Virus record (IMG/VR): IMGVR_UViG_3300035388_000077
Location: 1 to 45,959 of that record
DNA: 45,959 nt
Direction: 5' to 3' (one strand)
DNA from: a virus
Made by a program: the position numbers and the translations under genes
Shown here: in pieces, positions 27,420 to 45,959 of the stretch
How positions within the stretch are numbered: position 1 is the stretch's first letter
Layout of the letters: each line of letters opens with the position of its first letter
Notes under the pieces: model-generated
The model's input: only the letters and a program-made list of their open reading frames with translations
The model's database searches: none
Told to the model about the DNA's origin: nothing

Positions 27420-27704
27420 CTAATTTCGAATCATATCTCCATTTGAATCAAACTCAATAGTCTTTGAGAAACGATTGTGTTCTTTGTTATGACATACTTT
27501 ACACAAAAACTCTAAGTTCTTAGGGTTTAACGATATATTTACATCCTTTATGTTTTCACTGTTTAAACGAATAATGTGGTGAACCTCTTCGCCAGGTATA
27601 CCACATCTTTCACATAATCCGTTTGCATCAGTAATCTTTTGGAGTCTTGCTAACCTCCAAGCTTTGGATTTATAAAACCTATGTATTGATTTAGCTTTTC
27701 TCAT
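27420..27704 (-). CDS. HNH endonuclease of the packaging module
   Basis: The product has 94 residues: basic N-terminus (FYKSKAWRLARLQKI), CERCG zinc knuckle at 31-35, EVHHIIRL (HNH strand), NLEFLCKVCHNKEHNR with the second CxxC and the final H. This is the small phage HNH family found next to cos sites and terminase genes in HK97-type phages, where it helps the terminase to cut. It overlaps the metK stop region by 14 bp. Here it is separated from terS by ~2.8 kb of HEPN and SIR2 cargo. Confidence 0.88.
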   Translation of the reverse strand: MRKAKSIHRFYKSKAWRLARLQKITDANGLCERCGIPGEEVHHIIRLNSENIKDVNISLNPKNLEFLCKVCHNKEHNRFSKTIEFDSNGDMIRN

Positions 27705-30842: not shown

Positions 30843-31298
30843 TTACTTCCATTCTTCTTCTTTATCTCTGTATCTTTTATCCATTAGATCAAGTTCTTCT
30901 TTACGTTCATTATAATCTCTACCAAACTTAGTAATAAGCAGGTATCTAGCGGATTGAAAGTCAGGTGGATACGATTTTGTTGTTTTAACGATTTTTTTCT
31001 TTCTTCCAGTCTTGGATTCTTCGATTGTTGTATTGGTATCTTCAAGTTTTATTCCTATTGCTTTTTCATAAATCGAGTTAACCAATGTGTCTTTTAATTT
31101 CATATCTCCAAAGATAAATGCGTTTCGAATACACACTTGTTCTTTTTTTAATTTGATAAGAACTCTCTCTGAAATACCTAGAACTTTTGCAATGTCTCTT
31201 TGTGGGATTCTCTTTGATACAAGCTCTTTAATGGTTGCGATTCGTTCATCAATACTATCTTCGTTTTCCCACGTTTCATAAATTGATATTCTACTCAA
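30843..31298 (-). CDS. HTH phage protein, TerS-like, first gene of the late operon
   Basis: I place the start at TTG 31298, 7 nt after AAAGGAG; the ATG at 31319 has no ribosome-binding site. The 151-residue product has a helix-turn-helix (IPQRDIAKVLGISERVLIKLKKE) and, after a linker, DFQSARYLLITKFGRDYNERKE, a phrase found in small phage DNA-binding proteins of the phBC6A51/TerS type. It is the first gene after the late promoter. A P27-like TerS already exists at 24313-24648, so this could be a regulator of the late genes rather than a terminase part. Confidence 0.6.
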   Translation of the reverse strand: MSRISIYETWENEDSIDERIATIKELVSKRIPQRDIAKVLGISERVLIKLKKEQVCIRNAFIFGDMKLKDTLVNSIYEKAIGIKLEDTNTTIEESKTGRKKKIVKTTKSYPPDFQSARYLLITKFGRDYNERKEELDLMDKRYRDKEEEWK

Positions 31299-31350
31299 AG
31301 ACATGCTCCTTTCATTCAAAATTGACTTTACTTACCATTGAAAATTAGAA

Positions 31351-31376
31351 AAGGAACTCAACTGAATGGGTTCCTT
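31351..31376 (-). terminator. Terminator-like hairpin in the late leader
   Basis: On the minus strand AAGGAAC (31376-31370) pairs with GTTCCTT (31357-31351) over 12 bases, followed by TTCTAATTTT. It lies between the late promoter at 31411 and the first gene start at 31298. The U tract is interrupted, so strength is uncertain. Confidence 0.55.
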
Positions 31377-31410
31377 CTTTTGTCTAATTACAACTGTCTA
31401 CTATATTGAA

Positions 31411-31457
31411 ATTATAGCAAAACAGTCAACTTTTATCTACCTGCAAACTGCACAGTT
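31411..31457 (-). promoter_or_regulatory. Late promoter with 21-bp upstream motif
   Basis: On the minus strand the 21-bp motif (AACTGTGCAG...TGCAGGTAG, 31457-31437) is followed exactly 20 nt later by TATAAT (31416-31411) with TG one base before it (TGCTATAAT). There is no -35 match at the right distance, so an activator probably replaces it. It would drive the packaging and structural genes. Confidence 0.65.
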
Positions 31458-31538
31458 CTAGTTATTTCAATATATCACCCTAAAAAGGGGTGTTTTGATC
31501 GTCTTTTCACTCGTCTTTACTAGGCTGTTTTTATAACA

Positions 31539-31565
31539 CGTTACCGTTCACAAGGATTACCGGTA
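31539..31565. repeat. 27-bp direct repeat, copy A
   Basis: CGTTACCGTTCACAAGGATT plus ACCGGTA: 25 of 27 positions are identical to 39247-39273 (two changes). It contains TTACCG...CGGTAA as an inverted repeat (14-base centre) and the palindrome ATTACCGGTAAT at 31556-31567. Copy B overlaps the end of the excisionase-like gene; here the same sequence lies between genes. Confidence 0.85.
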
Positions 31566-31619
31566 ATAGAAATTATAATATTGTTATAGAACACTAGTCC
31601 ACATTAATTTATAACTATT

Positions 31620-33113
31620 TTAAAGTTCTTCTAACTCCGGAAATCTGGCAAGAATTGTCTCCATCTGTTCGTGAGCTCTTATTCTATATTCAGCACATCC
31701 TTTTAGAATTCGAAAAGCTATTTTTCTCATTCTAGCATCTTTGCTCAGTTTGATATAATCACACATTGCAGTAGAGAATACCTCGTAGTTTTGAAAGCCA
31801 CCATACCCTGTTGCATCAACATAATTATCAAGTAGGGACTCCAATATAACTGCTTGTGATTTATTTAAAAGTTTTACGAGTAATTTACCAAAATTGTAAA
31901 AACGATTTTCAACAATATATTTAGATAGCCCTAGACTCCTATCTATCTTTAATAGATATCTTTCAACCTCTGGGCTACATTCAAGTTGTTTTATTTGTAG
32001 TTCTAAGGTTTCAGTTCTTTGACCTCTATTTTCTTCGTCAATTATCAAACTCAAATCATTAATAATTGATAAAATGCTCTGATATCTTTGTCTGCGATCG
32101 CGATCTGTACATTTATCAATTAAATATGACAATTTCCTATTAAGTGAACACCCCCTTGTAATGAAGTCAATTATTTTCCCTATTGAGTATATATCACTCA
32201 ATTTATCGAGTCTACAAAAATCAGTATGTCCGATCGGATCCATAAACATATGGGAGTTCTTTGGCGTATTCGAGGATTTAAAAGATACAACTTTCATCAT
32301 GTCCTTGCTTAATCCAAAATCTGCCAAAATAAAGTGATTGTCTTTTCTCAAGATATTACCTAAATGTAAATCCCTATGAACTATTCCTGAACTATGAACA
32401 TCTTGTAATCCAGCAAGAATGTCATTAATCATTTTCAATAGTAAAGAGTCTTCAATTTGAAGATCATTAATTTCAAGATAATCACCTAAATCACATTCGC
32501 AAGCCTCCATCAAGTAAGAATGTTCTACCTCGTTGAAATCAAATACTTTAAGTACAAAATCTGAATTGCTAAGTTTTGTCATGTTATCAAACTCTGTCTT
32601 CATTCTAATTTTCCATTGTTCATTATTAAAATGCTTTTGGTTAAGACGCTTTTTCAAACATACTTCGCTAACGAATATAATATCACAATATGATCCATGA
32701 AATTTTACAATCTCAGTATTAAGTTCAACAATTCCATCTATCGTTTCAATACTCACGCCGAGTCTTTGTAAAAAGTTACAACTTTTACTAATAACTTCTT
32801 TCATGTTTGTTTCATTGTATGACGATTTAGAAATTAGATTTATAATAGATTCGATAACTTTTAACTGATAGTATATCCCCTTTTGAAGAATACTTTCAGA
32901 AAGTGAAACAAAATCAGAATATATATAGCCCGCAGTTGATTGAAAGTAATCATATACATCCAGGTAATCAATGGAGTAAATTGAGGATTCAAAATACTCA
33001 TCAAAAGTGAGACCAATATAATGAGTTCCATAATTACCCCACTCATCAATATCAGTTTTTTCAGTTAAGAAAACAGAATCAAAATAAGTAATCAATCGTT
33101 CTATTTGTTCCAA
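31620..33113 (-). CDS. Ser/Thr protein kinase-like protein in the defence operon
   Basis: The product has 497 residues. Residues 1-140 are unrecognised and mostly helical. The kinase domain (about 140-360) has Lys154 in FVSEVCLKKRL, Glu174 in a helix, VHRDLHLGNILRK (246-253, HRD and Asn) and ADFGLSK (DFG 265-267), so all key catalytic residues are present. A helical region follows, ending RIRAHEQMETILARFPELEEL. The start is TTG after AGAGGG. It is the last gene of the operon after the IIG enzyme and methyltransferase. Kinases occur with modification-based defence systems such as BREX type 2 (PglW), but this is smaller and has no PglZ or other BREX genes around it. Confidence 0.8.
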   Translation of the reverse strand: MEQIERLITYFDSVFLTEKTDIDEWGNYGTHYIGLTFDEYFESSIYSIDYLDVYDYFQSTAGYIYSDFVSLSESILQKGIYYQLKVIESIINLISKSSYNETNMKEVISKSCNFLQRLGVSIETIDGIVELNTEIVKFHGSYCDIIFVSEVCLKKRLNQKHFNNEQWKIRMKTEFDNMTKLSNSDFVLKVFDFNEVEHSYLMEACECDLGDYLEINDLQIEDSLLLKMINDILAGLQDVHSSGIVHRDLHLGNILRKDNHFILADFGLSKDMMKVVSFKSSNTPKNSHMFMDPIGHTDFCRLDKLSDIYSIGKIIDFITRGCSLNRKLSYLIDKCTDRDRRQRYQSILSIINDLSLIIDEENRGQRTETLELQIKQLECSPEVERYLLKIDRSLGLSKYIVENRFYNFGKLLVKLLNKSQAVILESLLDNYVDATGYGGFQNYEVFSTAMCDYIKLSKDARMRKIAFRILKGCAEYRIRAHEQMETILARFPELEEL

Positions 33114-33151
33114 AAGTTATCCCTCTTTCTTTATTGAGTATGTGTTCATGT

Positions 33152-33250
33152 TTATGTTAATTTGTTGTAGTCTATTAGTAAATCATATTTACCAGCACCT
33201 TGGTATGTAGCTAAATTTTTAAGTATCAAGATGCTCCGAAAAGCAATATA
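33152..33250 (-). other. In-frame continuation of the methyltransferase beyond TGA
   Basis: The 32 codons downstream of TGA are in the same frame: YIAFRSILILKNLATYQGAG then KYDLLIDYNKLT, ending TAA. No start or ribosome-binding site is present. If read through (for example TGA from TGG Trp), the gap to the kinase shrinks from 137 to 38 bp, as normal in an operon. Confidence 0.5.
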
Positions 33251-34873
33251 TCACCTTGACCTACCTAATCGTCTATTTTGCATTTTTTTCCAAATACCTC
33301 TAAATTCCTTACACTCAAACTCACTTAAACCTACATGGTCAATTAAGATAGTTTTATCAACAAGATCAAGTACCAGTTCGATATCTTTCCTTTTTCTAAT
33401 TATTTTATCTATTTTCATTAAAAGGTCATTTTGGACTTCCAGTGACACGTTCTCAATTTTGGGTAACAAAACCTCCCCAACTTCACTTGGTAAAATTTCT
33501 AAGACTCCTCCTCCATAGCTTCTACCGTTGATTTCTGTAAAAGCAAAAGAAATACTATTATAATACGACAATAAAATGTTCTCTTTACTAAAACCTTCCT
33601 TAAACGCAATTCTATGCATTGTATCTGTTGATACAGCATTAATATCATTCAGTACCATCTTAGGATATATATTATTTCTTCTCAAAAAGAAAGCGTCTGG
33701 TACCCACATTGAAGGAATAGCAAACCAGTATTTCCTGATAGAACATTTATAACCTGTATGTTCACCATTTTTTTCACCTAATGTGATGTATTCATTTTGT
33801 AAATCATTATAATTAGATCGGTTCTCTGTTAATGCTAATAATCTTGATTTTCTATTGTCATTATAGTTATCTAGATAATCCTTTTTTCTGAAGTGCAGCC
33901 CTTTAACATGAGAACTTCTTCCAATTAATGGACAACTGACGTTGTGTAGATCATATTTTTCAACTAGACTCTTTTCAAGTGAAAAGAATTTGTTATTCCC
34001 AGTTGTGATTCCAACATTAATCTTTGCTACATCCGAGAACTTTTGGAACCTAACATCATTCTTCATACTATTTATTAACATAATATCATTCCTGCTTGTA
34101 AAATACTTTGTCCACTTTTCTTTCGAACATGGTGCACTAATATACTCAAAATCACTTAAATCAATACTTGAAAAACTATCAACATCTCTTGTTTCAACAA
34201 TTCTAATACCTTTATTTTCAGAAGATTTAGTACACTTCAACAGAACAGTTTCTTGCTCTATATCATCAAAAACTAATTTTGTAAAAGTAATAATTGTAAT
34301 ATCATTAAATCTTTTTAGCAACATTTCTCTTAGGTCCTTCGCATAGACTACTTGTAATAATTCAGCAGGCAAAACAAAAACTAATGTACCCTTATCAGAT
34401 AACATTGTTGAACATGCAACGGTGAATCCAACCCAAGCATTAATAAGTTTATTCGATTTCATTCCTTCGGTTTCCAGTATAATGGACAATTCACTTCTTT
34501 GTTCAGTAGTTAAATATTGATATCTGATATAAGGTGGATTCCCAACTATCAAATCATACTTAGTTGTAATTTTATCAGAATGGAAATTAAAGAAATCACT
34601 ATGAACAATCTCCAAATTGGAGTTTTTCAAGTACTTTTTCTTTAGTTTTCGGGTTTCATGCTCATCAATTTCAACCCCAGTAATACTAGCATTTTGAAAC
34701 ACACCACTTTCTAATATACTTTCTATAAAGACTCCGTCCCCGCAACTGGGTTCAAGAATGTTTTGCACTTTATTAGAATCTGTCAACTTTTCGATTATAC
34801 AATCTGCCAATTTTTTCGGGGTATAGTAGGCACCTCTTAGTTTTTTGGCAGATGTTTCAGACTTTAATTTCAT
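33251..34873 (-). CDS. Eco57I-type N6-adenine DNA methyltransferase, TGA near its end
   Basis: The product has 540 residues. It shows RGAYYTPKKLADCII (motif X region, 13-27), LEPSCGDGVF (motif I, 40-49), DLIVGNPPYIRY (NPPY at 112-115, motif IV), and a C-terminal part with TaqI/Eco57I-like target recognition (IGRSSHVKGLHFRKKDY, SIRKYWFAIPSM). It starts inside the stop of the IIG gene (ATGA). After the TGA at 33251-33253 the same frame stays open for another 32 codons, ending GAGKYDLLIDYNKLT, up to TAA at 33152, 38 bp before the kinase. The gene may originally have ended there, with a nonsense change removing the C-terminus. Confidence 0.85.
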   Translation of the reverse strand: MKLKSETSAKKLRGAYYTPKKLADCIIEKLTDSNKVQNILEPSCGDGVFIESILESGVFQNASITGVEIDEHETRKLKKKYLKNSNLEIVHSDFFNFHSDKITTKYDLIVGNPPYIRYQYLTTEQRSELSIILETEGMKSNKLINAWVGFTVACSTMLSDKGTLVFVLPAELLQVVYAKDLREMLLKRFNDITIITFTKLVFDDIEQETVLLKCTKSSENKGIRIVETRDVDSFSSIDLSDFEYISAPCSKEKWTKYFTSRNDIMLINSMKNDVRFQKFSDVAKINVGITTGNNKFFSLEKSLVEKYDLHNVSCPLIGRSSHVKGLHFRKKDYLDNYNDNRKSRLLALTENRSNYNDLQNEYITLGEKNGEHTGYKCSIRKYWFAIPSMWVPDAFFLRRNNIYPKMVLNDINAVSTDTMHRIAFKEGFSKENILLSYYNSISFAFTEINGRSYGGGVLEILPSEVGEVLLPKIENVSLEVQNDLLMKIDKIIRKRKDIELVLDLVDKTILIDHVGLSEFECKEFRGIWKKMQNRRLGRSR

Positions 34874-37851
34874 ATAATTCCCCTTTTTAGATATATTCTA
34901 CCTATCTCACTATCAATGTCCACTAACAGCTTTCTTTTTCTTTCTTTCAAAACTTTAATTTTCAATCTGTTATCTTGATTCATCAAATCATTAATTTTAT
35001 TGATCTCCTTTGATTTTCTTACAATTGTATCATGAGAAGATTTTTCAATTTTGTTTGTAAAGTCTAATGGATAAATACCAACTCTCTTCAACACAGCTGT
35101 TCCTCTTGACACAAAGCCACCTTCAAAAGGACTACCATACTCTCTTATGACTTTTTCAGTTACTGAAGAAGTCAACCATGCCTGAATATACTCTAAATCG
35201 TACGGACATGTTTTTTTCAGTTTGATCGCGCAGTAACCTGCAGTTCCTCCTGATGAGATAATCATATCATTCTCATCAATAATATACATAGGTTCTTTAC
35301 TTAAAATACCTACGATAATTTTTCTTGTATTAATCAATGAAGTAATACCTTGAGTTCTTCCGTACTGATACCAAGTATCTTTTGTAGCACCGGGTACATC
35401 TCTTACGCCATTATAAGTTTTAATTTGCTTCGGAACAAGTATATCAAAATGATCAAACAAATATTCATAAGCCCCTGGATACATTTTTTTAAAATTGTTA
35501 ATTAAAATTAGTGATCCATCTTCGTTATACGGGAATATTATCCTTTTATTAGTTAAAAGTTCGGAATAAGAATTAAGTCCCTTTTCCGATTTTTTCGTAG
35601 GTTTAAAATAGTTCTTTGTTATTTCTTTTTCAATATTATATTTTTTATTATTCTTGCAAATATAGTATTTAGAATTGTCTTCTCTATAAACTTCTTCATT
35701 CGTAAACCAATAAACAGGAGGTCTCTCTGCAGAAGTTTGAATACCATTATATATATCTACAAAATTGGTCAGCGGTACAATTTCATCACTTATATTACTT
35801 AAGTATTTATCAGCAATAAAACTCCATATTTTATTATCTATAGTGTCAATTTTTTTCCTAATCTGGAAAGTAAATTCATTGTTTAGCAAACTAGTGAAAC
35901 TATCCACAGTTTTAAATAGTAATTCATTATTCTGAGTTTTCTGATAAACTAAAATAGAACTATAAATAGTTTTATTTTTAAACAACTGAGAATCGCCAAA
36001 GTCAACAATTTCAACAAACTGCTTTTTTTCTGTTAAGATTTCTCTTAATTTAATGCCAGAACTGACCTTCATAAATTTATTAGGAATTAAAAAACTCAAA
36101 ACCCCATTTGTATTCAAGTTGTTAATAGCTTTTTCAACAAAAATAAAGTATTTATCAAATTGTTTGTATGCCGACTTGTAAATGTCTTTATACATCTTAA
36201 ATTCAATATCATTTAACAAATTATGCATATCTTCTGTTTTTACATAAGGAGGATTTCCAATAATTAAATCAAACTGTCTACCCTTTGCGATACTATTCCA
36301 ATCAAATGGAACTATCTCGTATAAATCGTAATGATTATACTTGTAATCATCAATCATTGAATAATCTATGAGTGAGTTTCCACACTGAATATTCATATCA
36401 ATGACCGGTAGTAAGGGGATATGGCTTTCTACAGTTGCCCTAGTTTCTCCCTCTAAAAGTTTTACTAAAAGTGAAAACTTAGTCACTTCTACTGCCTGTA
36501 AATCAATATCAATTCCATAAATGCAATTAACAATTATACTCTTTTTGATATCGATTGGTAACTTTAATTGGCCTCCATCAGAATATTCCAAAACTGAAAC
36601 ATCGTTCTTCAAATACCAATTAACAAACGTTTCTGAAACATAGTCATACAACTCCTCTAAAAATATTCCAGACCCACATGAAATATCTGCAAACTTCATT
36701 AACAAAATCTCAGCAGGTGTTCTATTCTCAAAAAGTCTTTTTAATGAATTTTCCACCATAAACTTAACTACTTCAATAGGAGTTGTGACGATTGATCTAT
36801 TAATGAAATCCTTCTTTTTAGTTAGAACTACCCGACCTTTATCAATAATTAGGCTCTCCGTTAAAAACATTTCATAAATTCTTCCTAATATATTAGGCTC
36901 GATTATATTAAACAAGTACGGACTTTTAGGATAATACAAGTCTTCAATCACACTCATAATGCAAGCATTTTCAAGATCGAAAGTAATTTCATTGTTGGTA
37001 AATAAACCGGAATTGTATCTCATATCTGCTTCTAAAAATAGCTCGTTAAGTTTTACAATTACGTCATTAGTATTTTGAGAAATTACCTTTAATTTATGAT
37101 ACTCTGCTAAATTCCTATCCTCACAAATTCTAAGAAAAACAAGTTTATTTATGAATCTCTGAACTGAGTCGTTTAAAAACTCTAAATCGCAGTATTTTAT
37201 TTTGTCCTTAAGGTAAAGTTCATTACTGATTTTAACTCTCCAACTATTCATTTTTCTTAAGAAGTGATCATCAACTTTCATCGCGAGTCTTTCATTTTCA
37301 ATTAATCTTTCCGAGTGAAACTTATCCAATCCTCCCTCATAGACTGATTCCTTTGAAAGTAACTTGAAAATCTGTTCTTTATTTTCTATATACTCTGAGA
37401 AATGAAATTTCCTAAATAACCCAATATTAACATTGTCATCATCAACTGGTACTATACCAGTGTCATATATGAGCAAATACTCAAAGTTTGTAAGTACTGA
37501 AAAATTATGGTTTGCATTCCATCCGTATTTTCTACATTGCATTATTGAGTCAATTGAATTTAGTATGTCCACTGAGGGTTTTTTCGCCTCAATAAACAAT
37601 TTTGTCACACCTCGAATTGTCAAAGTATAATCAGGTCTACTTGAATTGTCATCATATTTCTCTACAATTACTTCTCTATACTGTGGTGGAGTATTTTTTC
37701 CATTATTTACATCCCATCCGAGAAAGGATAACAGTTTATCGATATATTCAAGTCTACATGAATCTTCATTATACGAGTTTTTAGAATTCTTATAATATTC
37801 AAGATTTTTGTCAAAGTGTTCAATAACACTTTTAAATTCATTAATATCCAT
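34870..37851 (-). CDS. Type IIG restriction-modification enzyme (Eco57I-like)
   Basis: The product has 993 residues. The N-terminus is a PD-(D/E)xK nuclease: RLEYIDKLLSFLGWDV (33-48), RPDYTLTIRGVTKLFIEAKKP with D74, E88 and K90. A helical linker leads to the gamma-type methyltransferase: IVTTPIEVVKFMVENSL (354-370, motif X), FADISCGSGIFLEELYDYV (388-405, motif I), YGIDIDLQAVEVTKFSL and FDLIIGNPPYVKTEDM (NPPY 533-536, motif IV). The rest is probably the target-recognition region. Cleavage and methylation in one chain is typical of type IIG. It overlaps the next gene by four bases and has its own promoter and palindrome. Confidence 0.88.
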   Translation of the reverse strand: MDINEFKSVIEHFDKNLEYYKNSKNSYNEDSCRLEYIDKLLSFLGWDVNNGKNTPPQYREVIVEKYDDNSSRPDYTLTIRGVTKLFIEAKKPSVDILNSIDSIMQCRKYGWNANHNFSVLTNFEYLLIYDTGIVPVDDDNVNIGLFRKFHFSEYIENKEQIFKLLSKESVYEGGLDKFHSERLIENERLAMKVDDHFLRKMNSWRVKISNELYLKDKIKYCDLEFLNDSVQRFINKLVFLRICEDRNLAEYHKLKVISQNTNDVIVKLNELFLEADMRYNSGLFTNNEITFDLENACIMSVIEDLYYPKSPYLFNIIEPNILGRIYEMFLTESLIIDKGRVVLTKKKDFINRSIVTTPIEVVKFMVENSLKRLFENRTPAEILLMKFADISCGSGIFLEELYDYVSETFVNWYLKNDVSVLEYSDGGQLKLPIDIKKSIIVNCIYGIDIDLQAVEVTKFSLLVKLLEGETRATVESHIPLLPVIDMNIQCGNSLIDYSMIDDYKYNHYDLYEIVPFDWNSIAKGRQFDLIIGNPPYVKTEDMHNLLNDIEFKMYKDIYKSAYKQFDKYFIFVEKAINNLNTNGVLSFLIPNKFMKVSSGIKLREILTEKKQFVEIVDFGDSQLFKNKTIYSSILVYQKTQNNELLFKTVDSFTSLLNNEFTFQIRKKIDTIDNKIWSFIADKYLSNISDEIVPLTNFVDIYNGIQTSAERPPVYWFTNEEVYREDNSKYYICKNNKKYNIEKEITKNYFKPTKKSEKGLNSYSELLTNKRIIFPYNEDGSLILINNFKKMYPGAYEYLFDHFDILVPKQIKTYNGVRDVPGATKDTWYQYGRTQGITSLINTRKIIVGILSKEPMYIIDENDMIISSGGTAGYCAIKLKKTCPYDLEYIQAWLTSSVTEKVIREYGSPFEGGFVSRGTAVLKRVGIYPLDFTNKIEKSSHDTIVRKSKEINKINDLMNQDNRLKIKVLKERKRKLLVDIDSEIGRIYLKRGII

Positions 37852-37881
37852 TCATTTCAGCTACCTTCATATTATATTATT

Positions 37882-37915
37882 TTTACTGCAGTAAATTCAT
37901 GTTTTTATTATACCA
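37882..37915 (-). promoter_or_regulatory. Promoter and palindromic operator of the restriction operon
   Basis: On the minus strand TGGTATAAT (37915-37907) is an extended -10 without a good -35. Immediately downstream, TTTACTGCAGTAAA (37882-37895) is a perfect 14-bp palindrome placed at the likely transcription start. The IIG gene starts at 37851. This is where a repressor would block transcription. Confidence 0.6.
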
Positions 37916-37931
37916 CGTAAAATAATATATA

Positions 37932-38408
37932 TTACATATTGTTTTCATTAAAGTGTGACTTGCATTTTGGTGGTTTTATATTGAACTCTTTCTTTTTTAA
38001 CATAATCATTAATTTGTTTATAACGGTATATATTCTATTTTTACTCACATCATAATTATTTGCTATTTGCCTAATCGAGTAGTTATCAAAAATAATGTTA
38101 TGTAAGATTTTTCTCTTTTCGATATCAATAGTATTTACTAGTCTATAATACTCGTCTATTTTTATAGTAACTTTTTTAATAGCAGCTGTTACTTCTTCTA
38201 TTTTACCAATAGTATACAATAGATTATTCTCAACATTGTTACCTGATGTCCCAGGTCCTATTGAATCAAAGGAAACAGCGTTATAGCTATTAAGCCTCTG
38301 CTCATATTTCTTTAACTCCTCTGCTAACTCATCCTTCTTTCTAAAAGATCTCCTTACGTCATCTATCCACTGATAAAAATCTTTGTTTAAACCATTTCTC
38401 AATATCAA
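37932..38408 (-). CDS. RinA/ArpU-like late transcription regulator
   Basis: The 158-residue product has a helical N-terminal part and, at its C-terminus, a sigma-70 region 4-like helix-turn-helix: EKRKILHNIIFDNYSIRQIANNYDVSKNRIYTVINKLM. Proteins of this shape at the end of the early region (ArpU, RinA, DUF1492) activate late promoters. AGAAAGGA is followed by GTG (38411), TTG (38408) and a later TTG (38402); 38408 has the best spacing. It overlaps the DUF4373-like gene by 50 bp. It is the natural candidate to bind the 21-bp motif before the late promoter, but no evidence is direct. Confidence 0.6.
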   Translation of the reverse strand: MILRNGLNKDFYQWIDDVRRSFRKKDELAEELKKYEQRLNSYNAVSFDSIGPGTSGNNVENNLLYTIGKIEEVTAAIKKVTIKIDEYYRLVNTIDIEKRKILHNIIFDNYSIRQIANNYDVSKNRIYTVINKLMIMLKKKEFNIKPPKCKSHFNENNM

Positions 38409-39225
38409 CACGATCCTTTCTGTTCCTAAACTTCTCCAGGTTATTATATAGCGAAGTACTCATAAAGTTGTACCTGTCATCTATGGGGGTTTCTGTCTTG
38501 TTAGAGTATGCAATTATATAGTTAACTGCACTTAGTACATTCTCATATTCATATTTATCAATCACAGCTTCAAATAAACTGTTATACTTTAAAACTTGAG
38601 AATCACAATCTTTTATGTACTTTCTTTGAATTATCAATTTAGTAATGAAATGCATTTTGGGGGTCCCATAAATGCTTTTATCATATATTGTCTTTATATC
38701 ACTTTTACTTTTACTTTTACTTTGTGTACTATTGTTAACATTAATTGGGTTATTGCTGTCACAAACTAGGTTGTTGTCTACATTAACTATATTTTTTTGC
38801 ATGCTTAAAGGAGCTCCTAATTGTTCCATGGTTGCCGAGTCCAACAACCAATACTTGTTTATATTGATATTCCTTCTTCTTTTCGTTGAAAGAATAAATT
38901 GTTTCTGGATGGAGATTGAAGTGATAACACCTTGTGTGAAGAACGCTCTTTCAAAGAGTCTAAGTTCCACACAAGCGTGAATCATTTCCGAAATCTTGTC
39001 CACTCTTACCCAAAATGGTCCAACTAATCGATGTAATGTCAATAGTAGTTCATCGTGTGTCTTTTCTAAGTAATAGCCGTTCTCATAAACAAGAGCTAAG
39101 ATACGAATATATACAAACACTCCGATGGGTCCATGGTGGTAATGAAGTGACTCCAGTTTAGGATCATCAAAAGCATGCACGTCCAGTGGGAAATACTCTA
39201 ATCCACTTTTATACGGGCGTGCCAT
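38359..39225 (-). CDS. DUF4373-like (Lin1244/Lin1753) replication-associated protein
   Basis: The product has 288 residues. MARPYKSGLEYFPLDVHAFD at the start and the following VFVYIRILALVYENGYYL are diagnostic of the Lin1244/Lin1753 N-terminal (DUF4373) domain of phage replication proteins. A Ser/Asn-rich linker (about 150-175) and a helical C-terminal region resemble DnaD-like initiators. It ends with TGA. The 5' end lacks a good Shine-Dalgarno. It is the only replication-type gene visible apart from the SSB-like gene. Confidence 0.75.
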   Translation of the reverse strand: MARPYKSGLEYFPLDVHAFDDPKLESLHYHHGPIGVFVYIRILALVYENGYYLEKTHDELLLTLHRLVGPFWVRVDKISEMIHACVELRLFERAFFTQGVITSISIQKQFILSTKRRRNININKYWLLDSATMEQLGAPLSMQKNIVNVDNNLVCDSNNPINVNNSTQSKSKSKSDIKTIYDKSIYGTPKMHFITKLIIQRKYIKDCDSQVLKYNSLFEAVIDKYEYENVLSAVNYIIAYSNKTETPIDDRYNFMSTSLYNNLEKFRNRKDRVDIEKWFKQRFLSVDR

Positions 39226-39246
39226 TTTTAGCCATTTATCGTGTGG

Positions 39247-39273
39247 CGTTACCGTTCACAAGCATTATCGGTA
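39247..39273. repeat. 27-bp direct repeat, copy B
   Basis: CGTTACCGTTCACAAGCATT plus ATCGGTA: 25 of 27 match copy A at 31539-31565, in the same orientation, 7.7 kb apart. It covers the last codons and stop of the excisionase-like gene (minus strand DNACER stop). A third partial match, TATCGGTAAG, lies at 42311-42320. Confidence 0.85.
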
Positions 39274-39473
39274 GACCCCTTACACTTTTTTGTTTTTAAC
39301 GTAGACAAATATTTTTTGTAATGGATTTCTGTTACTTTCCATTGGTTTCCTATTTTGTATGCTAACAATTTTCTTTGTTTTATATGAGACATTATTGTTC
39401 TTCTGGTATATCCTGATGCTTCCATTATTTCATTTATGGTGTATGTTTTTTCTTGTTCTTTAAGTTTTAACAT
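39249..39473 (-). CDS. Excisionase-like small HTH protein
   Basis: This 74-residue protein has a MerR/excisionase-type winged helix: YTINEIMEASGYTRRTIMSHIKQRKLLAYKIGNQWKV (the '..l..a..l.vs..tv...i..g.l.a.k.g..w.i' pattern of excisionases). It overlaps the antirepressor stop by 14 bp. It may assist the tyrosine recombinase or act as a transcriptional regulator. Its last seven codons contain the 27-bp repeat that recurs before the late promoter. Confidence 0.75.
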   Translation of the reverse strand: MLKLKEQEKTYTINEIMEASGYTRRTIMSHIKQRKLLAYKIGNQWKVTEIHYKKYLSTLKTKKCKGSTDNACER

Positions 39474-40191
39474 TTCTAGTTACCTCATACTCCTTGAGAA
39501 TTTTCTCAATAAATCTTATTCCGCTTTTATATACAAATGTTCGGATTGTTGTGATAACACTTCCTCCCACTATCACTTTTGATTCTACTACTCTAAAAAG
39601 TTTTCTATCACAAAACTCTTGGTAGGGTATGTTTCCTTCATCAATTATATATGAAGCTCTCAATATCTTTAATAAACCATTATTACGGATTCCTCTATAT
39701 TTAACAACTTCATGGACTACATCTAAGTCGACACAACTGGTTGATCCCAGAAGTTTCTCTATAAATCTCAGTTTTGGTGCATCAAGTTTCATTGTTGATT
39801 CCAATATGTTATTTCGTATTTTCAAGTCCTGGTATTCATCTAAGAACTGGACTACTGTACTTGGATCAGTAAAATCTTCTACCTTGTAATCAATATACTT
39901 CACCAATTGAGGAAGCACTGTGCGAAACATCCAGTCGTATATCATGTCTGCTTCCGGTTTTCTTGATAGAAACAAACATGTCGTTAAGTATTTCGCACTG
40001 ATAAACAATTTAGTTTTCTCTTTTTTCACTGTAACGTACTTTATGTCATTGGAGGGGATTATTTTTCTACACTCCTGTACGCTTTTAATATTTAGTAGTC
40101 TTGCTACGTCTAGTAAACAGAAATACGGTTCTTTCTCTACTATAGAAGTTCTTAGCTTTCCATGTTCAACATTTACAAATTCCTTAATCAT
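39460..40191 (-). CDS. Phage antirepressor (Bro-N plus C-terminal ANT/KilA-C-like domain)
   Basis: The product has 243 residues. The N-terminus (GKLRTSIVEKEPYFCLLDVARLLNIKSV, ISAKYLTTCLFLSRKPEADMIYDWMFRTVLPQL) is a Bro-N domain; the C-terminal part (DAPKLRFIEKLLGS..., KILRASYIIDEGNIPYQEFCDRKLFRVVE, TTIRTFVYKSGIRFI) is the phage antirepressor KilAC type. GGGAGGATC precedes the ATG. It overlaps the excisionase-like gene. It should counteract the CI-like repressor on induction. Confidence 0.9.
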   Translation of the reverse strand: MIKEFVNVEHGKLRTSIVEKEPYFCLLDVARLLNIKSVQECRKIIPSNDIKYVTVKKEKTKLFISAKYLTTCLFLSRKPEADMIYDWMFRTVLPQLVKYIDYKVEDFTDPSTVVQFLDEYQDLKIRNNILESTMKLDAPKLRFIEKLLGSTSCVDLDVVHEVVKYRGIRNNGLLKILRASYIIDEGNIPYQEFCDRKLFRVVESKVIVGGSVITTIRTFVYKSGIRFIEKILKEYEVTRNVKT

Positions 40192-40219
40192 ATTTGATCC
40201 TCCCAGTAAGTTATGTTAG

Positions 40220-41134
40220 TTAAGGTTTACCAAACAACCTATCACTAATCTTATGTTCGTATTTTTCTTTTCTTTTTTTCATTCGATGAATATATATTTG
40301 TGTTGTTGCTGGATCTTTATGTCGTAATAATTGTTGCGTTTCATCGATTGTTGCTCCCTCTTCTAATGATAAGGTTGCTGTTGTGTGTCTTAAGCTATGT
40401 GCAGAATATCTAGGGTTGTCAATCCCTATTTGACGCAAGTATTCTTTTACTATTCCTCGAATCATCCTTGTTCTTAATCTTGTCCCTTTATGAGTTGAAC
40501 AATGGTTAATGAATAATGATTCATAGTTATCTGATCTTGCTTGTTGATATATTTCAAATAGATTATAAACTTGCGGTGACAGTTTCACATATTCATTCTT
40601 TTCATCACGTCCTTTTCCTCTTACGTATAGAACTTGTTCATCATCAACTCTGACAATATCATCAATATTGGATCGTTCGACTTCTATAGTTCGTAATCCA
40701 GTAGTTATAAGCAGTGCAATCAAAGTGTAATTTCTGATTCCTATGATATCTATTTCTGCTAATGTCTCTGCTCTTTTTAATAATCGTTGTGAGTCCTTAA
40801 TCGATAGAGCTTCTCGTTTAAAGTCTGATTCAATTTTCATTCCTTTAACACCTTCAGCTATGTTTGCTCCATAACCTTCAATGTAGTACCACCTGTAGAA
40901 ATTTCTAATCACAACAATATGTTTTTGGACTGAAGAAGCTTTCAGTCGTTTTTTTATTAACTCTCTATACTTTATAACATCCTGCCTAGTTGGTAAGTTA
41001 GGTAGTTTATCAACATACGATGCAAACTCTAATAGAATCCTGCTGTACCCGACTTTAGTATCCGATTTCACATCAATGTAATCAATATATTGTTTAATGT
41101 GGGTACGCAGAGAATTGCTTTTTTTCATGTTCAC
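40220..41134 (-). CDS. Tyrosine recombinase (XerC/D-like)
   Basis: The product has 304 residues. The N-terminal SAM-like core-binding domain is at about 5-95; the catalytic domain has R148 (TTGLRTIEV), K174 (VRGKGRDEK), H246-xx-R249 (AHSLRHT), H272 (LLRHKDP) and Y281 (TTQIYIH): the full set. It lacks an arm-binding domain, so it resembles XerC/D more than lambda integrase. It sits inside the minus-strand early operon between the Cro-like HTH and the antirepressor, not next to an obvious att site. The prophage also has two serine recombinases at its right end. Confidence 0.92.
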   Translation of the reverse strand: MNMKKSNSLRTHIKQYIDYIDVKSDTKVGYSRILLEFASYVDKLPNLPTRQDVIKYRELIKKRLKASSVQKHIVVIRNFYRWYYIEGYGANIAEGVKGMKIESDFKREALSIKDSQRLLKRAETLAEIDIIGIRNYTLIALLITTGLRTIEVERSNIDDIVRVDDEQVLYVRGKGRDEKNEYVKLSPQVYNLFEIYQQARSDNYESLFINHCSTHKGTRLRTRMIRGIVKEYLRQIGIDNPRYSAHSLRHTTATLSLEEGATIDETQQLLRHKDPATTQIYIHRMKKRKEKYEHKISDRLFGKP

Positions 41135-41359
41135 TTAGTATTTCTTATTAATATTATTTAAATCAGTAATATAGTCCGCTTCACTGTTTAACAACTTGAT
41201 TGGTTCCATATCCAGTGCCTTTACTAAATCTAGAAGTACTTTGACTGTTAAATGTTTACCTCGTTGCCCATTCTCTAATTGAAAATAATAGTATTGAGAT
41301 ATATCCATTATTCTAGATACCATTTCTGCTGAGTATCCCAGTTCAATTCTTCTTTGCAT
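41135..41359 (-). CDS. Small XRE-type HTH (Cro-like) protein
   Basis: The 74-residue product matches an XRE helix-turn-helix: RRIELGYSAEMVSRIMDISQYYYFQLENGQRG then LTVKVLLDLVKALDMEPIKLL. The ATG at 41359 has no ribosome-binding site. The frame stays open for 26 codons upstream, to AAGGAAGG at 41443-41450 with an ATT codon at 41437, so the real start may be upstream with a rare initiator. It is the first gene opposite the CI-like repressor and ends at the tyrosine recombinase start. Likely it controls the early promoter. Confidence 0.75.
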   Translation of the reverse strand: MQRRIELGYSAEMVSRIMDISQYYYFQLENGQRGKHLTVKVLLDLVKALDMEPIKLLNSEADYITDLNNINKKY

Positions 41360-41663
41360 TAAGTAAAATCTTGGTAGCGGTACATTTTGTCCCTTCTGTT
41401 TTTCATATCTTATGCGTCTCTTATCTAAGTTTAAAATATAATCCTTCCTTTACTGTAAAATTTGATGGCAATCCGATTATATAACAAATATTTAATTAGC
41501 GAAATAACCTAGAGCAACATATCGCATTATACTACAAATAGAGTTATAATCATTATCATTAAGCGATTAATTCACTAATATTATTGTTTTTACATACGTT
41601 TTCATTTGACAATGCAACGTTTGTTACTGTATACTTTTAATTAGAAAACGAAAGGATGTTTTT
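41360..41663. promoter_or_regulatory. Divergent early/repressor control region
   Basis: This ~300-bp region separates the CI-like (plus) and Cro-like (minus) genes. Plus strand: TTGACA (41606-41611), 18 bp, TATACT (41630-41635) for the repressor. Minus strand: TATAAT (41481-41476), no clear -35, for the early operon. Repeated ACGTTT elements (about 41596, 41617) and AAACG (41646) could be operators. Confidence 0.65.
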
Positions 41664-42260
41664 ATGGATAATTCAACCCAAAGTGATCAGTTTAACAAAC
41701 TATTTATCAGTGAAAACCTCAAGCGACTAAGAAAATCGTATAACTTATCACCAAAAAAAGTAGCTTCAATTATTGGTAAATCTCGGCAAGGATATGTCAA
41801 CTATGAAAATGGATCAAGGGAAATTGGAATACATGATTTAATTACCCTGTCAGGATTTTACAACACTTCGATAGATGCAATTGTAGGAAACCCCTTTTCA
41901 CTTAAAAACAACAATTCGCTCTCCTTCAGAACTTACGAACGTTCAGAAGGTATTCTCAAAGAAGTTATGCCTAATACCATATCAACTCTACTTGATGATG
42001 TTATCTGTGTTAATGAAAGTGAGAATCTTAATTTGTTCTTTTGGAAGACAAATGCAAATCAAAAAGGTCATGTAATGCTCTTTGAATATTATGATAAGCC
42101 ATTTATTTCCAAAGTCCATTATAACAAAAACCATGGTGGCTATTTTTATATTAATGATGAACCACTCTTTTTTAATAAAGCCCAAGCAGAAAGTCTGCTC
42201 TTTAAAGGCATTTACATGTCAAAATTGAAAAAAAACATGTCGATTCCGTATTTCTTTTAG
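41664..42260 (+). CDS. CI-like phage repressor
   Basis: The product has 198 residues. The N-terminal XRE domain reads ISENLKRLRKSYNLSPKKVASIIGKSRQGYVNYENGSREIGIHDLITLSGFYNTSIDAIVGNP. The C-terminal half (GHVMLFEYYDKPFISKVHYNKNHGGYFYIND) has the strand order of S24 LexA/CI dimerisation domains but no clear Ser-Lys catalytic pair, so RecA-driven self-cleavage is doubtful. GAAAGGATG precedes the ATG. The antirepressor at 39460 may be the induction route. It is divergent from the Cro-like HTH and maintains lysogeny. Confidence 0.88.
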   Translation: MDNSTQSDQFNKLFISENLKRLRKSYNLSPKKVASIIGKSRQGYVNYENGSREIGIHDLITLSGFYNTSIDAIVGNPFSLKNNNSLSFRTYERSEGILKEVMPNTISTLLDDVICVNESENLNLFFWKTNANQKGHVMLFEYYDKPFISKVHYNKNHGGYFYINDEPLFFNKAQAESLLFKGIYMSKLKKNMSIPYFF

Positions 42261-42261
42261 C

Positions 42262-42308
42262 AACTGTGCAGTTTGCAGGTAGTTTTATGTTTTGATACAT
42301 GATAAACT
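42262..42308 (+). promoter_or_regulatory. Second 21-bp motif with extended -10, faces recombinases
   Basis: The 21 bases at 42262-42282 are identical to the reverse complement of 31437-31457. Exactly 20 nt after it lies TGATAAACT (42300-42308), an extended -10-like element (TGN plus four of six -10 matches), the same spacing as at the late promoter. It lies just behind the CI stop and points to the recombinase genes. Confidence 0.55.
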
Positions 42309-42363
42309 ACTATCGGTAAGTTAGGAATCAACATTTACAAACTTTTTTAAGTCCCCCATTCTG

Positions 42364-42395
42364 AGAGGAATTGCTATATGCAATTCCTCTTTTTT
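42364..42395 (+). terminator. Strong intrinsic terminator before the recombinase operon
   Basis: AGAGGAATTGC (42364-42374) pairs with GCAATTCCTCT (42380-42390) around TATAT, followed by TTTTTT. It ends the CI transcript, and is also between the 42303 promoter and the first recombinase-operon gene at 42415. Confidence 0.9.
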
Positions 42396-42414: not shown

Positions 42415-42576
42415 ATGGAAACTAAAGAGAGTAATAATTATAATCACATGAAAATGCTTCTAGAACATCTATATAAAAATAATGAAATCCACTTTCTTGA
42501 ATATTATAAAACACTTCTTGATATCAATGAATTGTTTGGTGTTCCTGTAGCAAGACCGCTTGTTAAGTCAAAATGA
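42415..42576 (+). CDS. 53-codon small gene preceding the serine recombinases
   Basis: ATG at 42415 is preceded by GGAAAGGA and begins 20 bp after the terminator. The product METKESNNYNHMKMLLEHLY, then KNNEIHFLEYYKTLLDINEL and FGVPVARPLVKSK, is charged and helical, without a membrane segment. Its position directly before two large serine recombinases suggests a recombination directionality factor or cofactor, or a leader peptide; none of this can be confirmed by sequence. It is short but has a proper ribosome-binding site and ends with TGA. Confidence 0.6.
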   Translation: METKESNNYNHMKMLLEHLYKNNEIHFLEYYKTLLDINELFGVPVARPLVKSK

Positions 42577-42634
42577 CTTGCTATTAGGCCAACTATAAGT
42601 GATATATGAATAAACCAACAAGGAGGTGGCAATA

Positions 42635-44329
42635 TTGCTGCAAAAGCAAATAAGAATCATTGAACCAACAAGACCCTTTAGTTCTATCGAAGGGGAAGTT
42701 GGAGTAAAAATCAAACGTGTATGTGCGTATGCAAGAGTATCTACTAATACAGCTGATCAACTTAATAGTTATCGAGTTCAAATCGAAGAATATACTGGAC
42801 GTATAAAAAAACACCCCAATTGGATATTCCAAGGGATGTATGCAGATGAAGGTATATCAGGTACTAGCATTAAGAATCGAACACAGTTCTCAAAAATGCT
42901 ACAAGACGCTAGAGAGAATAAGATAGACCTAATTCTAACAAAGTCTTTATCAAGGTTTGCCCGCAACACCGTTGACAGTTTAACAGTAATCCACGAATTG
43001 AGAAATCTAGGGGTTGAAGTTTTCTTTGAGAAAGAAAATTTATCCTCCACAGATAATAAGGTGGACTTTCTATTAACTATCTTCTCTTCGATAGCCCAGG
43101 AGGAATCAAGAAATATTAGTGAAAATATTAAGTGGGGCTATAGAAAGAAATATCAAAAAGGAGAGGTCCATATTAATACTAAGCGATTCCTTGGTTATGA
43201 CAAGGACGATGATGGAGTAATTGTTATAAACGAAGAACAGGCAGAAACAGTAAGGCTTATATTTAACTTGTACATTTCTGGACAGTCGACTCGTGAAATA
43301 GCAAATCATTTATTGGATAACAATTTCAAAAATGGTCGTCAAGAGGTGATATGGAAGCCAGCATCCGTTACAACCATTCTCACGAATGAAAAATACTGTG
43401 GAGATGCAATTTTGCAAAAAAGAGTAACAGTCGACTACCTAACACATAAGTCTGTAAAGAACACAGGACAAGCTCCAAAATATCATATAATGAACAACCA
43501 CGTACCGATCATTGATAGAGAACTATTCAATGCTGTACAACAAATTAAAAGTAATAGAGCCAATAGAATTGAGCATTCACGTTATAGAAACAGGTACCCA
43601 CTTAGTGGACTTGTATTCTGCGGAGAATGTCTAAAAAAACTAAACAGAAAACACTACAACCCAAACACAAAGAATAGTAGAATTGTTCTAAGTTGTAAAA
43701 GTACCGGTGCAAGCAACTGCTCAAATAAGCCGATTGAGAATTCATTAATTGAATTAGCTTGTGGTGATGCAATTAAAAAATTAAATAAAAATACGATTAT
43801 TAAAGATTTTATCCGAATATTAGAAAAAAATCTAGATACAACCAAACATCAGGAATCCTTAGCCGGAATAAGAAAACAAACTGAGAAAATCGAAACAGAG
43901 ATTAAAAACCTTATCGAACTTAGAATAGCTAGCACAGATGATATTGAAAATGCAAGTTTTAAAAGTATCTACAATGAAAAAATCGTCATACTTGATGAGT
44001 TACAAAAAAAAGAATTAGATCTGCAACAGTTACTTGCTGAAAGTCATTTAAACAGAGAAAGAATCAAGCAGATAAAGAATTTTCTATTTACAAGTGGAAC
44101 AATACTATCTAGAGAAGCTTTAGTTTCAATAGCTAAGAAAATAATCCAAGTAAATCAAAATGAAATTATAATATGCGTCGGTAGTGAAGATATTGAGCAA
44201 AAGGTTACAAGACAATTTATAGACACACTATATATTCAACCATCGATCCTTACTTCTTCTGTTGAGAGTAAAGGTCTAAAACTAAACTATAGAGTAGTAG
44301 ATGTTGGAGTAAACAATTATGAGAATTAG
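42635..44329 (+). CDS. Large serine recombinase 1
   Basis: The start is TTG at 42635, 8 nt after AAGGAGG. The product has 564 residues. The catalytic domain reads VCAYARVSTNTADQ (Ser36), GMYADEGISGTSIKNR and LILTKSLSRFARNTVDSL; the recombinase domain has LGYDKDDDGVIVINEEQAETVRLIF and NEKYCGDAILQK; the zinc ribbon is CGECLKKLNRKHYN plus SCKSTGASNC. A coiled coil follows. These are the features of phiC31/TP901-1-type integrases. It overlaps the second recombinase by 11 bp. Confidence 0.93.
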   Translation: MLQKQIRIIEPTRPFSSIEGEVGVKIKRVCAYARVSTNTADQLNSYRVQIEEYTGRIKKHPNWIFQGMYADEGISGTSIKNRTQFSKMLQDARENKIDLILTKSLSRFARNTVDSLTVIHELRNLGVEVFFEKENLSSTDNKVDFLLTIFSSIAQEESRNISENIKWGYRKKYQKGEVHINTKRFLGYDKDDDGVIVINEEQAETVRLIFNLYISGQSTREIANHLLDNNFKNGRQEVIWKPASVTTILTNEKYCGDAILQKRVTVDYLTHKSVKNTGQAPKYHIMNNHVPIIDRELFNAVQQIKSNRANRIEHSRYRNRYPLSGLVFCGECLKKLNRKHYNPNTKNSRIVLSCKSTGASNCSNKPIENSLIELACGDAIKKLNKNTIIKDFIRILEKNLDTTKHQESLAGIRKQTEKIETEIKNLIELRIASTDDIENASFKSIYNEKIVILDELQKKELDLQQLLAESHLNRERIKQIKNFLFTSGTILSREALVSIAKKIIQVNQNEIIICVGSEDIEQKVTRQFIDTLYIQPSILTSSVESKGLKLNYRVVDVGVNNYEN

Positions 44330-45959
44330 AGAAGTCGTTAACCCACAAGACCTAATACTAGAAAAACCAAAAAAGAATGTTTGTGCCTACGCAAGAATTT
44401 CATCAAGTAAAGACGTCTCACATATGAGTTTTGAAAATCAAGTAGACACTTACACATCTCAAATAATGAGAAATAATGATTGGAACTATGTAGGTGTTTT
44501 TGCAGACGAAAGTAAAAGTGGAACAAATACATTAAAAAGACCACAGTTTAATCAGATGATTAACATGGCAAAGAATGGACTAATTGATTTAATACTTACT
44601 AAATCAATATCAAGATTTGCAAGAAATACGATTGATTCACTTTCGACACTCCAAGACCTACGGAATCATGATGTGGAAGTCTTTTTTGAAAAAGAGAATA
44701 TTTCATCATTTGATACAAAGATTGAGTTTGTAATTTCTATTATGTCTGGAATGGCTGAAGAAGAAGCTAGAATAGTAAGTGAAAATGTTAAATGGAGCGT
44801 ACGAACAAACTTTAAAAAGGGTAACTTCTATTTTTGCACACAAGCCTTTTTAGGCTACGATAGGGACAATGATGGTAATATCATAATTAACGAGCCACAA
44901 GCCAAGATTGTGCGGAGAATATTCGATTTATACGCAACCGGTACAAGTGTTTCTGACATTATATCTGAATTAAATAATATTAATGCTAGAACGGTGTATG
45001 GGAATACATCGTGGTATCCAAATGCTGTAATGAACATTATAAAAAACGAGAAATATTCAGGTGATGCTTTGCTTCAAAAGGATTATAGACCAAGCTTCAA
45101 ATCTAAATTAAAAAAGGTCAACGATAATGTTCTACCCAAATATTATGTAGAAAACAATCATCAACCTATTGTATCAAAAGAACTATTCAAAAAAGCAAAT
45201 AAAGTACGCTTAGCAAGAATTGACAAATATATTAAACAGGACCGAAATGTCTACTCAAAAAAATCGATTTATGCTGATTTTATGTATTGTCCTTACTGTG
45301 GACAAAACTACAATCACAGAGTCAGTCATAGTGGTACAGAATACTCTAGGTCAATGATGCATTGTAGATCAAACAAGTCAAAAAAGCTATGCGAATCTGA
45401 TAAAGTATCTTTGAAAGTTTTTGATCAACAATTGTTAAAAATGATAAACTCAATTATTAAAAATAAGAAGGAACTATTATCAAAATACAAAACACACCTT
45501 GATTCAAGTAATGAGAGAAAGAAACTGATAAAGCGTAAAGACTTACTTTTGCATAAACTAAATCCATACCTACTAACACTAAACACAATAAACTCTTCTG
45601 ATGATTTTAATGCTATTGTTGAATCTAGGGTTAAAGAAAAGATTAAACCAGTAAGAAGTGAAATAATATCTATAGACAATCTTCTACTTACTAAATACAA
45701 TACACTCGATCACTACACAAGAATCAAGAAACTATTACATAATTATACGAGTCCAATTACTGAAATATCTGAATTTCCTTTTAAAGAACTATTCAGTAAG
45801 GTAATCGTCGATTCAAAAGACAACATAAAATTCGTTGTAGGGTCCAGAGATGATTACAATAATTTCAACAGTAAGAAAAAAGGTTTATACTCGCAATCTA
45901 CAGACTACTTAATGCGAAAATGCACAAAAAAGTCATTCCATGGATTATATTTTTTTTAG
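44319..45959 (+). CDS. Large serine recombinase 2
   Basis: The product has 546 residues and ends exactly at the window edge with TAG. It reads VCAYARISSSKDVSHMSFENQ (Ser28), FADESKSGTNTLKR and LILTKSISRFARNTIDSL, then LGYDRDNDGNIIINEPQAKIVRRIF, NEKYSGDALLQK, zinc ribbon CPYCGQNYNHR plus HCRSNKSKKLC, and a coiled coil. It is a clear paralogue of the first recombinase; ATG at 44319 overlaps it. Two overlapping serine recombinases may form a heteromeric integrase or have separate roles in integration and excision. The attachment site should lie just beyond this gene. Confidence 0.93.
   Translation: MRIREVVNPQDLILEKPKKNVCAYARISSSKDVSHMSFENQVDTYTSQIMRNNDWNYVGVFADESKSGTNTLKRPQFNQMINMAKNGLIDLILTKSISRFARNTIDSLSTLQDLRNHDVEVFFEKENISSFDTKIEFVISIMSGMAEEEARIVSENVKWSVRTNFKKGNFYFCTQAFLGYDRDNDGNIIINEPQAKIVRRIFDLYATGTSVSDIISELNNINARTVYGNTSWYPNAVMNIIKNEKYSGDALLQKDYRPSFKSKLKKVNDNVLPKYYVENNHQPIVSKELFKKANKVRLARIDKYIKQDRNVYSKKSIYADFMYCPYCGQNYNHRVSHSGTEYSRSMMHCRSNKSKKLCESDKVSLKVFDQQLLKMINSIIKNKKELLSKYKTHLDSSNERKKLIKRKDLLLHKLNPYLLTLNTINSSDDFNAIVESRVKEKIKPVRSEIISIDNLLLTKYNTLDHYTRIKKLLHNYTSPITEISEFPFKELFSKVIVDSKDNIKFVVGSRDDYNNFNSKKKGLYSQSTDYLMRKCTKKSFHGLYFF

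Follow-up and report, generated by a model that had tools for sequence, protein, structure and literature searches.

A probable operator common to the late and serine recombinase promoters of Acholeplasmatales-type prophages

The phage genes int and xis have long been regarded as early genes. In lambda, CI acts at PRM by class II activation from an operator centred near -42, and the sites of the antiterminator Q lie downstream of the region from -53 to -33. Phages of Gram-positive bacteria use activators of the Ltr super-family, which recognise multiple direct repeats ahead of terS promoters; their targets consist of about four imperfect direct repeats, found at -76 to -32 in TP901-1 and at -107 to -42 in phi13 (PMC13123087). 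After SOS induction of P22, int/xis transcripts and excision come late, and the DNA is first replicated and packaged in situ (PMC8575938). Here we describe a 21-bp word, AACTGTGCAGTTTGCAGGTAG, in the IMG/VR virus record IMGVR_UViG_3300035388_000077, whose 45,959 nucleotides (nt) were analysed at full length and are called the window (W) below. The word precedes both the late promoter (P_late), in front of terS, and the promoter of an operon with two large serine recombinases (P_rec). It is probably the operator of a phage-encoded dimeric activator of the two promoters, with a small XRE-type protein as the first candidate for that activator, and excision would then come late. The record itself is probably a provirus cut from a metagenome contig, since it starts and ends exactly at the limits of open reading frames (ORFs).

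The two 21-bp copies are identical and lie on the strands and at the positions given in the initial annotation (Table 1). No further match to the word with three or fewer mismatches exists in the record, where none is expected by chance (100 dinucleotide shuffles), and the next best 19-mer in the window differs from it at six positions. The word spans -53 to -33, and its dyad, GCA-GTT-TGC, is centred at about -43. Downstream of it, P_late has TATAAT at 31416-31411 preceded by TGC, and P_rec has TAAACT at 42303-42308 preceded by TGA. Each hexamer follows the word at a distance of 20 nt and neither promoter has a -35 element at the proper distance, both as first described. The combined pattern GCN5GC-N23-TGN-TANNNT occurs exactly twice in the whole window. 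A role of the word as an attachment site for the serine recombinases can be rejected, as it also stands in front of terS and keeps a fixed distance to the -10.

Searching for the word in other genomes requires a detour. The exact 21-mer has no other copy in the viral and genome collections searched, because its letters are lineage-specific, and relatives were therefore reached through their proteins. With the recombinase as query, IMG/VR contigs were found at 50-53% identity. The best matches of a genome scan were Tenericutes/Acholeplasmatales metagenome-assembled genomes, whose orders were searched for additional loci, and repressor and tyrosine recombinase alignments added others; no relatives of terS and the ArpU-like protein were retrieved from the single window sequence. 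Several of the relative contigs are fragments. The layout is common to two clades, clade A, which has an ArpU-like gene and includes the window, and clade B, which has none. About 20 syntenic Acholeplasmatales-type prophages have a shared word at the same two places, one directly behind the stop codon of the repressor gene and one ahead of terS, with letters that are specific to each lineage. For example, TTTAGTGCTTTGCGCTAAT occurs twice in L216, TTGTGCCACTGGCATGTAG twice in G259 and AATGCTAAAAGTTCATAAA twice in G266; L204, L212 and L218 have the common word ATTGTGCTWAAAGCTT, G268 has TTATGC..TAAGCATATAG, clade B has AAACGTCNNCACT, and the operator of another lineage reads GTGCCACTGGCATG. The initial annotation had proposed looking for the motif before terS and the recombinase genes of related prophages; what recurs there, near the promoters, is the architecture, with other words. 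That relatives keep it with different words further excludes chance as the origin of the pair.

The geometry is as well conserved as the letters are variable. In nearly every clade A prophage, and at both promoters, the core GCN-N3-NGC has its centre 31 nt upstream of the -10 hexamer, or at about -43, so that a dyad stands at fixed spacing in the class II position (near -41.5 to -43). The set on which this was read comprises W, L203, L204, L207, L209-L213, L216, L218 and L220, and later G257-G270. The pattern given above is present in 20 of 26 post-repressor sequence windows, against a rate of 0.00025 per shuffled window, and in 12 of the 14 from loci added once the geometry was known. The two sites also change together: the recombinase and terS sites of the same genome match each other better than shuffled pairs (p 3.7e-4 in a fixed register, 1.5e-5 with shifts of up to 2 nt), and with clade A alone only 2 of 720 orders do as well. 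For the adjacent downstream stretch, the same test gives p 0.039 in a fixed register and 0.27 with shifts. In the clade B contig L214, the late promoter is duplicated, word included. Most clade A late promoters, and none of the recombinase promoters, also have a TTGACW hexamer 7 nt before the -10 (TTGACT in the window, within 31430-31411 on the minus strand); it was rejected as the -35 of P_late, being too close to the -10.

In the mechanism that we favour, an activator dimer would bind the dyad (GCN-N3-NGC and its flanks) some 43 bp upstream of the start, in the class II position, and would touch RNA polymerase at extended -10 promoters that have no -35. P_late would drive terS and the morphogenesis operon, and P_rec would drive a small conserved ORF and the two large serine recombinases. 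Expressed after induction, the activator would turn on the excision genes at the same time as the packaging and structural ones, and excision would thereby become part of the late programme. The sequences show the identity and position of the sites, their limitation to two in each prophage, their conserved geometry and their joint variation between lineages; late excision is what we infer, and the coupling of packaging and excision would be one of timing. Alternatively, the word could be the operator of a repressor, either the XRE protein in a Cro-like role or the prophage repressor, which would silence both promoters in the lysogen or soon after induction, with the late and excision genes derepressed together. 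By overlapping the -35 region, a dyad could keep polymerase out, an extended -10 promoter can be active with no activator present, and the XRE gene is in the Cro position. However, repression needs no set spacing, and nearly all clade A promoters keep the distance to the -10 exactly, to the nucleotide, while -35 elements are consistently missing. A third copy of the operator at the early divergent promoter was found in none of the genomes tested, and the recognition helix of the repressor is nearly constant within clade A while the word varies. For these last two reasons the prophage repressor was rejected as the binder, and its binding to the motif is unlikely. We see only a minor chance that repression explains the pair.

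The initial annotation had proposed a shared activator and had named the RinA/ArpU-like protein as the best candidate. Co-variation of the site pair at fixed spacing speaks for a shared regulator; the choice of protein did not survive the comparison. The ArpU-like gene lies between the replication genes and terS, is conserved in clade A and closes the early operon, an arrangement known from Ltr phages (PMC13123087). Its product matches PHROG_36 as well as Pfam UPF0122 (24.6 bits, with the cutoff at 22.7). No curated ArpU/RinA model is matched; the window protein has only YlxM/sigma-70 matches below the cutoff in NCBIfam. Its N-terminal part is conserved. The C-terminal part is replaced between genomes, and in several of them it has no recognisable helix-turn-helix (HTH). 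For instance, the C-terminal HTH is 20-47% identical, or none is visible, in L204/L212/L218/G258 and in G259/G260/G261/G263, two sets within which the sites are identical, so the DNA-binding domain is not conserved where its target would be. Clade B has the shared sites and no ArpU-like gene, and each promoter has a single dyad instead of the four direct repeats reported for Ltr targets (PMC13123087). The ArpU-like protein was rejected as best candidate on account of its scrambled HTH and its absence from clade B, and a part for it as the shared activator is improbable.

Distances between proteins can also be compared with distances between sites. In a partial Mantel correlation with the site, controlled for tyrosine recombinase and replication protein distances, the XRE protein and the HTH_17 protein score 0.45 and 0.48 (both p 5e-4), the repressor 0.40 and its DNA-binding domain 0.28. 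The N-terminal part of the ArpU-like protein correlates weakly (0.30, p 0.027) and its C-terminal part not significantly (0.15, p 0.14). In the XRE protein, the helix residue before a conserved Gln is F, Y, R, small or Q, and these classes coincide with the classes of words. Together with a dyad that would suit a dimer of the XRE fold, they are suggestive of the XRE protein as the binder. It would be the leading candidate and the HTH_17 protein the second. The fuller proposal can be put forward only tentatively, as a possibility that we hold at rather less than even: that in these mollicute-type prophages excision is hard-wired to the late phase, a co-evolving class II operator placing the tandem serine recombinase operon in the late regulon, that the prophage replicates and may be packaged in situ before it exits, and that the activator is the XRE protein in the Cro position and not a member of Ltr.

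Several points weigh against the activator mechanism. The dyad-to-hexamer distance is 1 nt shorter at P_rec of L220, and the P_late -10 of G257 and of G259-G263 lacks the TGN. In clade B the spacing is looser (29 versus 28-31 nt from its core) and the word is not palindromic. The evidence is comparative throughout, and the rows compared are related by descent. XRE and HTH_17 are not told apart by the Mantel test, and a gene that evolves fast may follow any other feature that does so. Finally, activation is preferred to repression on the strength of the fixed spacing and the missing -35.

Each promoter is followed by a hairpin with a U-rich tail, as the initial annotation had noted; the late-leader hairpin contains the inner hairpin marked earlier (31351-31376). 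All prophages examined, from both clades, have terminator-like hairpins with U runs in the stretch from P_rec to the small ORF (-10.7 to -18.3 kcal/mol); in the terS leader, a terminator-like hairpin is present in nearly all clade A prophages, including the window, and in none of clade B. The leader hairpins are probably terminators. Transcription of the repressor gene may also stop at the recombinase-leader hairpin, and the terS-leader hairpin implies that polymerase passes it by antitermination or by partial readthrough. In most clade A prophages the late leader starts with a near-invariant RNA segment, TATCGTGGARTACTGGCT...GCCTAGAAG, in whose stem one compensatory change is seen (GGCT/AGCC to GACT/AGTC in G266). 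When viral contigs were scanned blind for the pattern of this leader RNA, 39 stretches were returned, most of them upstream of terS with a promoter in front and the start of terS about 100-120 nt downstream; the others are chance matches without that context or lie on contigs that end before terS. The stem is missing in the window and in its closest relative, G257, both of which keep the operator, and operator and leader RNA are therefore separate devices. The conserved element at the 5' end of these leader RNAs, UACUGGCU-loop-GCCUAGAAG, stands before a terminator hairpin and terS in, for example, L204 (5285-5441, minus strand), L315 and L324 and is not found in the window; it is possibly an antitermination RNA. 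Rfam contains no known RNA family that matches the leaders.

Could both leaders then be antitermination units of the Q type, with the word loading an antiterminator at the promoter so that polymerase can run through the terminators of the leaders? In nearly all clade A prophages, each of the two promoters does have a terminator-like hairpin after it; the conserved 5' RNA hairpin UACUGGCU..GCCUAGAAG, with its one compensatory change, is present in the terS leader of most relatives; and clade B lacks both the ArpU-like gene and the terS-leader terminator. Against this, the word lies upstream of the position of a lambda Q site, the RNA hairpin is missing from the window leader and from all recombinase leaders, and clade B has shared words without a terS-leader terminator. 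The two leaders have no common element beyond the terminator-like hairpin, and no Q family match was found among the regulators scanned. The earlier suggestion that antitermination couples the two operons is thus not borne out, and Q-type units appear highly improbable. A recent promoter duplication or gene conversion without shared regulation would explain two identical copies in the window, and it is largely refuted by the lineage-specific pairs, given that identity ends at the operator while the -10 elements and leaders differ and that conversion would have to recur in many lineages with the same exact limits; we give it next to no credence.

Table 1. Coordinates of the operator copies, promoters, leader hairpins and genes in the window.
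Feature	Position	Strand	Evidence
Operator copy 1, AACTGTGCAGTTTGCAGGTAG, of late promoter	31437..31457	-	sequence search
Operator copy 2, identical to copy 1, directly after repressor stop codon	42262..42282	+	sequence search
P_late extended -10 (TGC TATAAT)	31411..31419	-	fixed spacing in relatives
P_rec extended -10 (TGA TAAACT)	42300..42308	+	sequence, fixed spacing in relatives
Late-leader hairpin, U-rich 3' side, terminator-like, -13.9 kcal/mol	31343..31389	-	folding
Recombinase-leader terminator-like hairpin and U run, -17.9 kcal/mol	42363..42391	+	present in both clades
terS, first late-operon gene	30843..31304	-	PHROG_309 terminase small subunit 1e-12
ArpU/sigma-4-like protein, end of early operon	37932..38411	-	PHROG_36 2e-8
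Replication initiator, early operon	39225-38359	-	
HTH_17 excisionase-like protein, early operon	39249..39473	-	Pfam HTH_17 2e-6
Antirepressor, early operon	40191-39460	-	
XerC/D-like tyrosine recombinase, early operon	40220..41134	-	homologue alignment
XRE/HTH_3 protein, first early-operon gene, Cro position	41135..41359	-	Pfam HTH_3 4e-7
Prophage repressor (HTH_3)	41664..42260	+	domain match
Small conserved ORF, 53 aa, first gene of recombinase operon	42415..42576	+	conserved in relatives
Large serine recombinase 1	42626..44329	+	Pfam Resolvase and Recombinase; PHROG_95 2e-126
Large serine recombinase 2	44319..45959	+	Pfam; PHROG_95 7e-110

On the minus strand of the window, the early operon is followed by defence-like cargo and then by terS and the late operon, in which terL, portal, protease, capsid, tail and tape measure genes come after terS. 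Rightward, the order is repressor, P_rec, small ORF and the two large serine recombinases. The second site faces the recombinase operon, as proposed, and the first gene after the hairpin is the 53-aa ORF, not a recombinase. This ORF has no Pfam match and is a possible accessory or directionality factor. Coding homology of the XRE protein reaches upstream of its listed ATG.

The early operon belongs to a phage that already has two serine recombinases, and it also contains a tyrosine recombinase, in which the catalytic residues to be expected, R148, K174, H246, R249, H272 and Y281, are invariant in 11 aligned homologues from both clades. A 26-bp dif-like element, TTACCGGTAATCCTTGTGAACGGTAA, is present as direct repeats at 31541-31566 and 39249-39274, both on the minus strand, one copy upstream of P_late and one upstream of the replication gene. 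It also occurs in L204, L212, L218, L214, L315-L317, L348 and others, and homology between relatives breaks sharply at its left edge. For instance, L315 and L312 have the same backbone and different cargo (right flank 100%, left 45%), and L316 and L348 have the same cargo and different backbones (left 85-97%, right 62%). Extra copies terminate individual cargo modules in L214 and L218, and a homology break inside the ArpU-like gene (37932-38411 and relatives) marks the other edge of the cargo region. The breaks at the dif-like element suggest site-specific exchange of defence cargo, with the XerC/D-like tyrosine recombinase as the obvious candidate enzyme for the 26-bp site. The cargo of the window, at 31620-37851 (minus strand) between the early and late operons, includes a Stk2-like kinase (PADLOC 1e-44), a type II methyltransferase and a type IIG restriction-modification enzyme; in the same place, clade B has AbiEi/AbiEii-like pairs, named by eye. 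Within the late operon, a PDC-S25-like defence candidate (24712-26322, minus strand; PADLOC 5e-90) and a phage-encoded S-adenosylmethionine synthetase (27691-28821, minus strand) lie near a ParB-methyltransferase fusion.

An operator common to late and excision promoters was not found reported in the literature searched, of which coverage was incomplete. Such an operator would time excision by a concrete device in cis that can be read from the sequence, and its lineage-specific pairs offer a clean system for matching phage activators with their sites. The closest likeness in geometry is with lambda CI at PRM: here too, a dyad, putatively the operator of an HTH_3-type dimer, lies at about -43 of a promoter without a good -35. 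The difference is that the proposed activation concerns the late and recombinase operons and not the repressor gene. With the Ltr super-family (RinA, ArpU, LtrC and TP901-1 Alt), the locus shares a phage-encoded activator, here proposed, that acts on the late promoter ahead of terS, and the window has an ArpU-like gene at the end of its early operon. It differs in having a single dyad, at -43, before each of two operons, and other proteins are better candidates than the ArpU-like one; attention shifts from this usual suspect to the small Cro-position XRE protein. In the Ltr literature searched, the reported targets include no recombinase promoter. As with lambda Q, a promoter and then a terminator are found in the late leader of clade A, including the window, and not of clade B; here, however, the operator lies further upstream, and the recombinase leader shares only the terminator-like hairpin. 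The late excision proposed here would be akin to that of the delayed-excision phages P22 and the S. aureus pac phages, known for lateral transduction. If replication and packaging did start before exit from the chromosome, lateral transduction would be favoured here as well. No shared operator of excision and late genes has been described for those phages, whereas here the excision genes carry the late operator.

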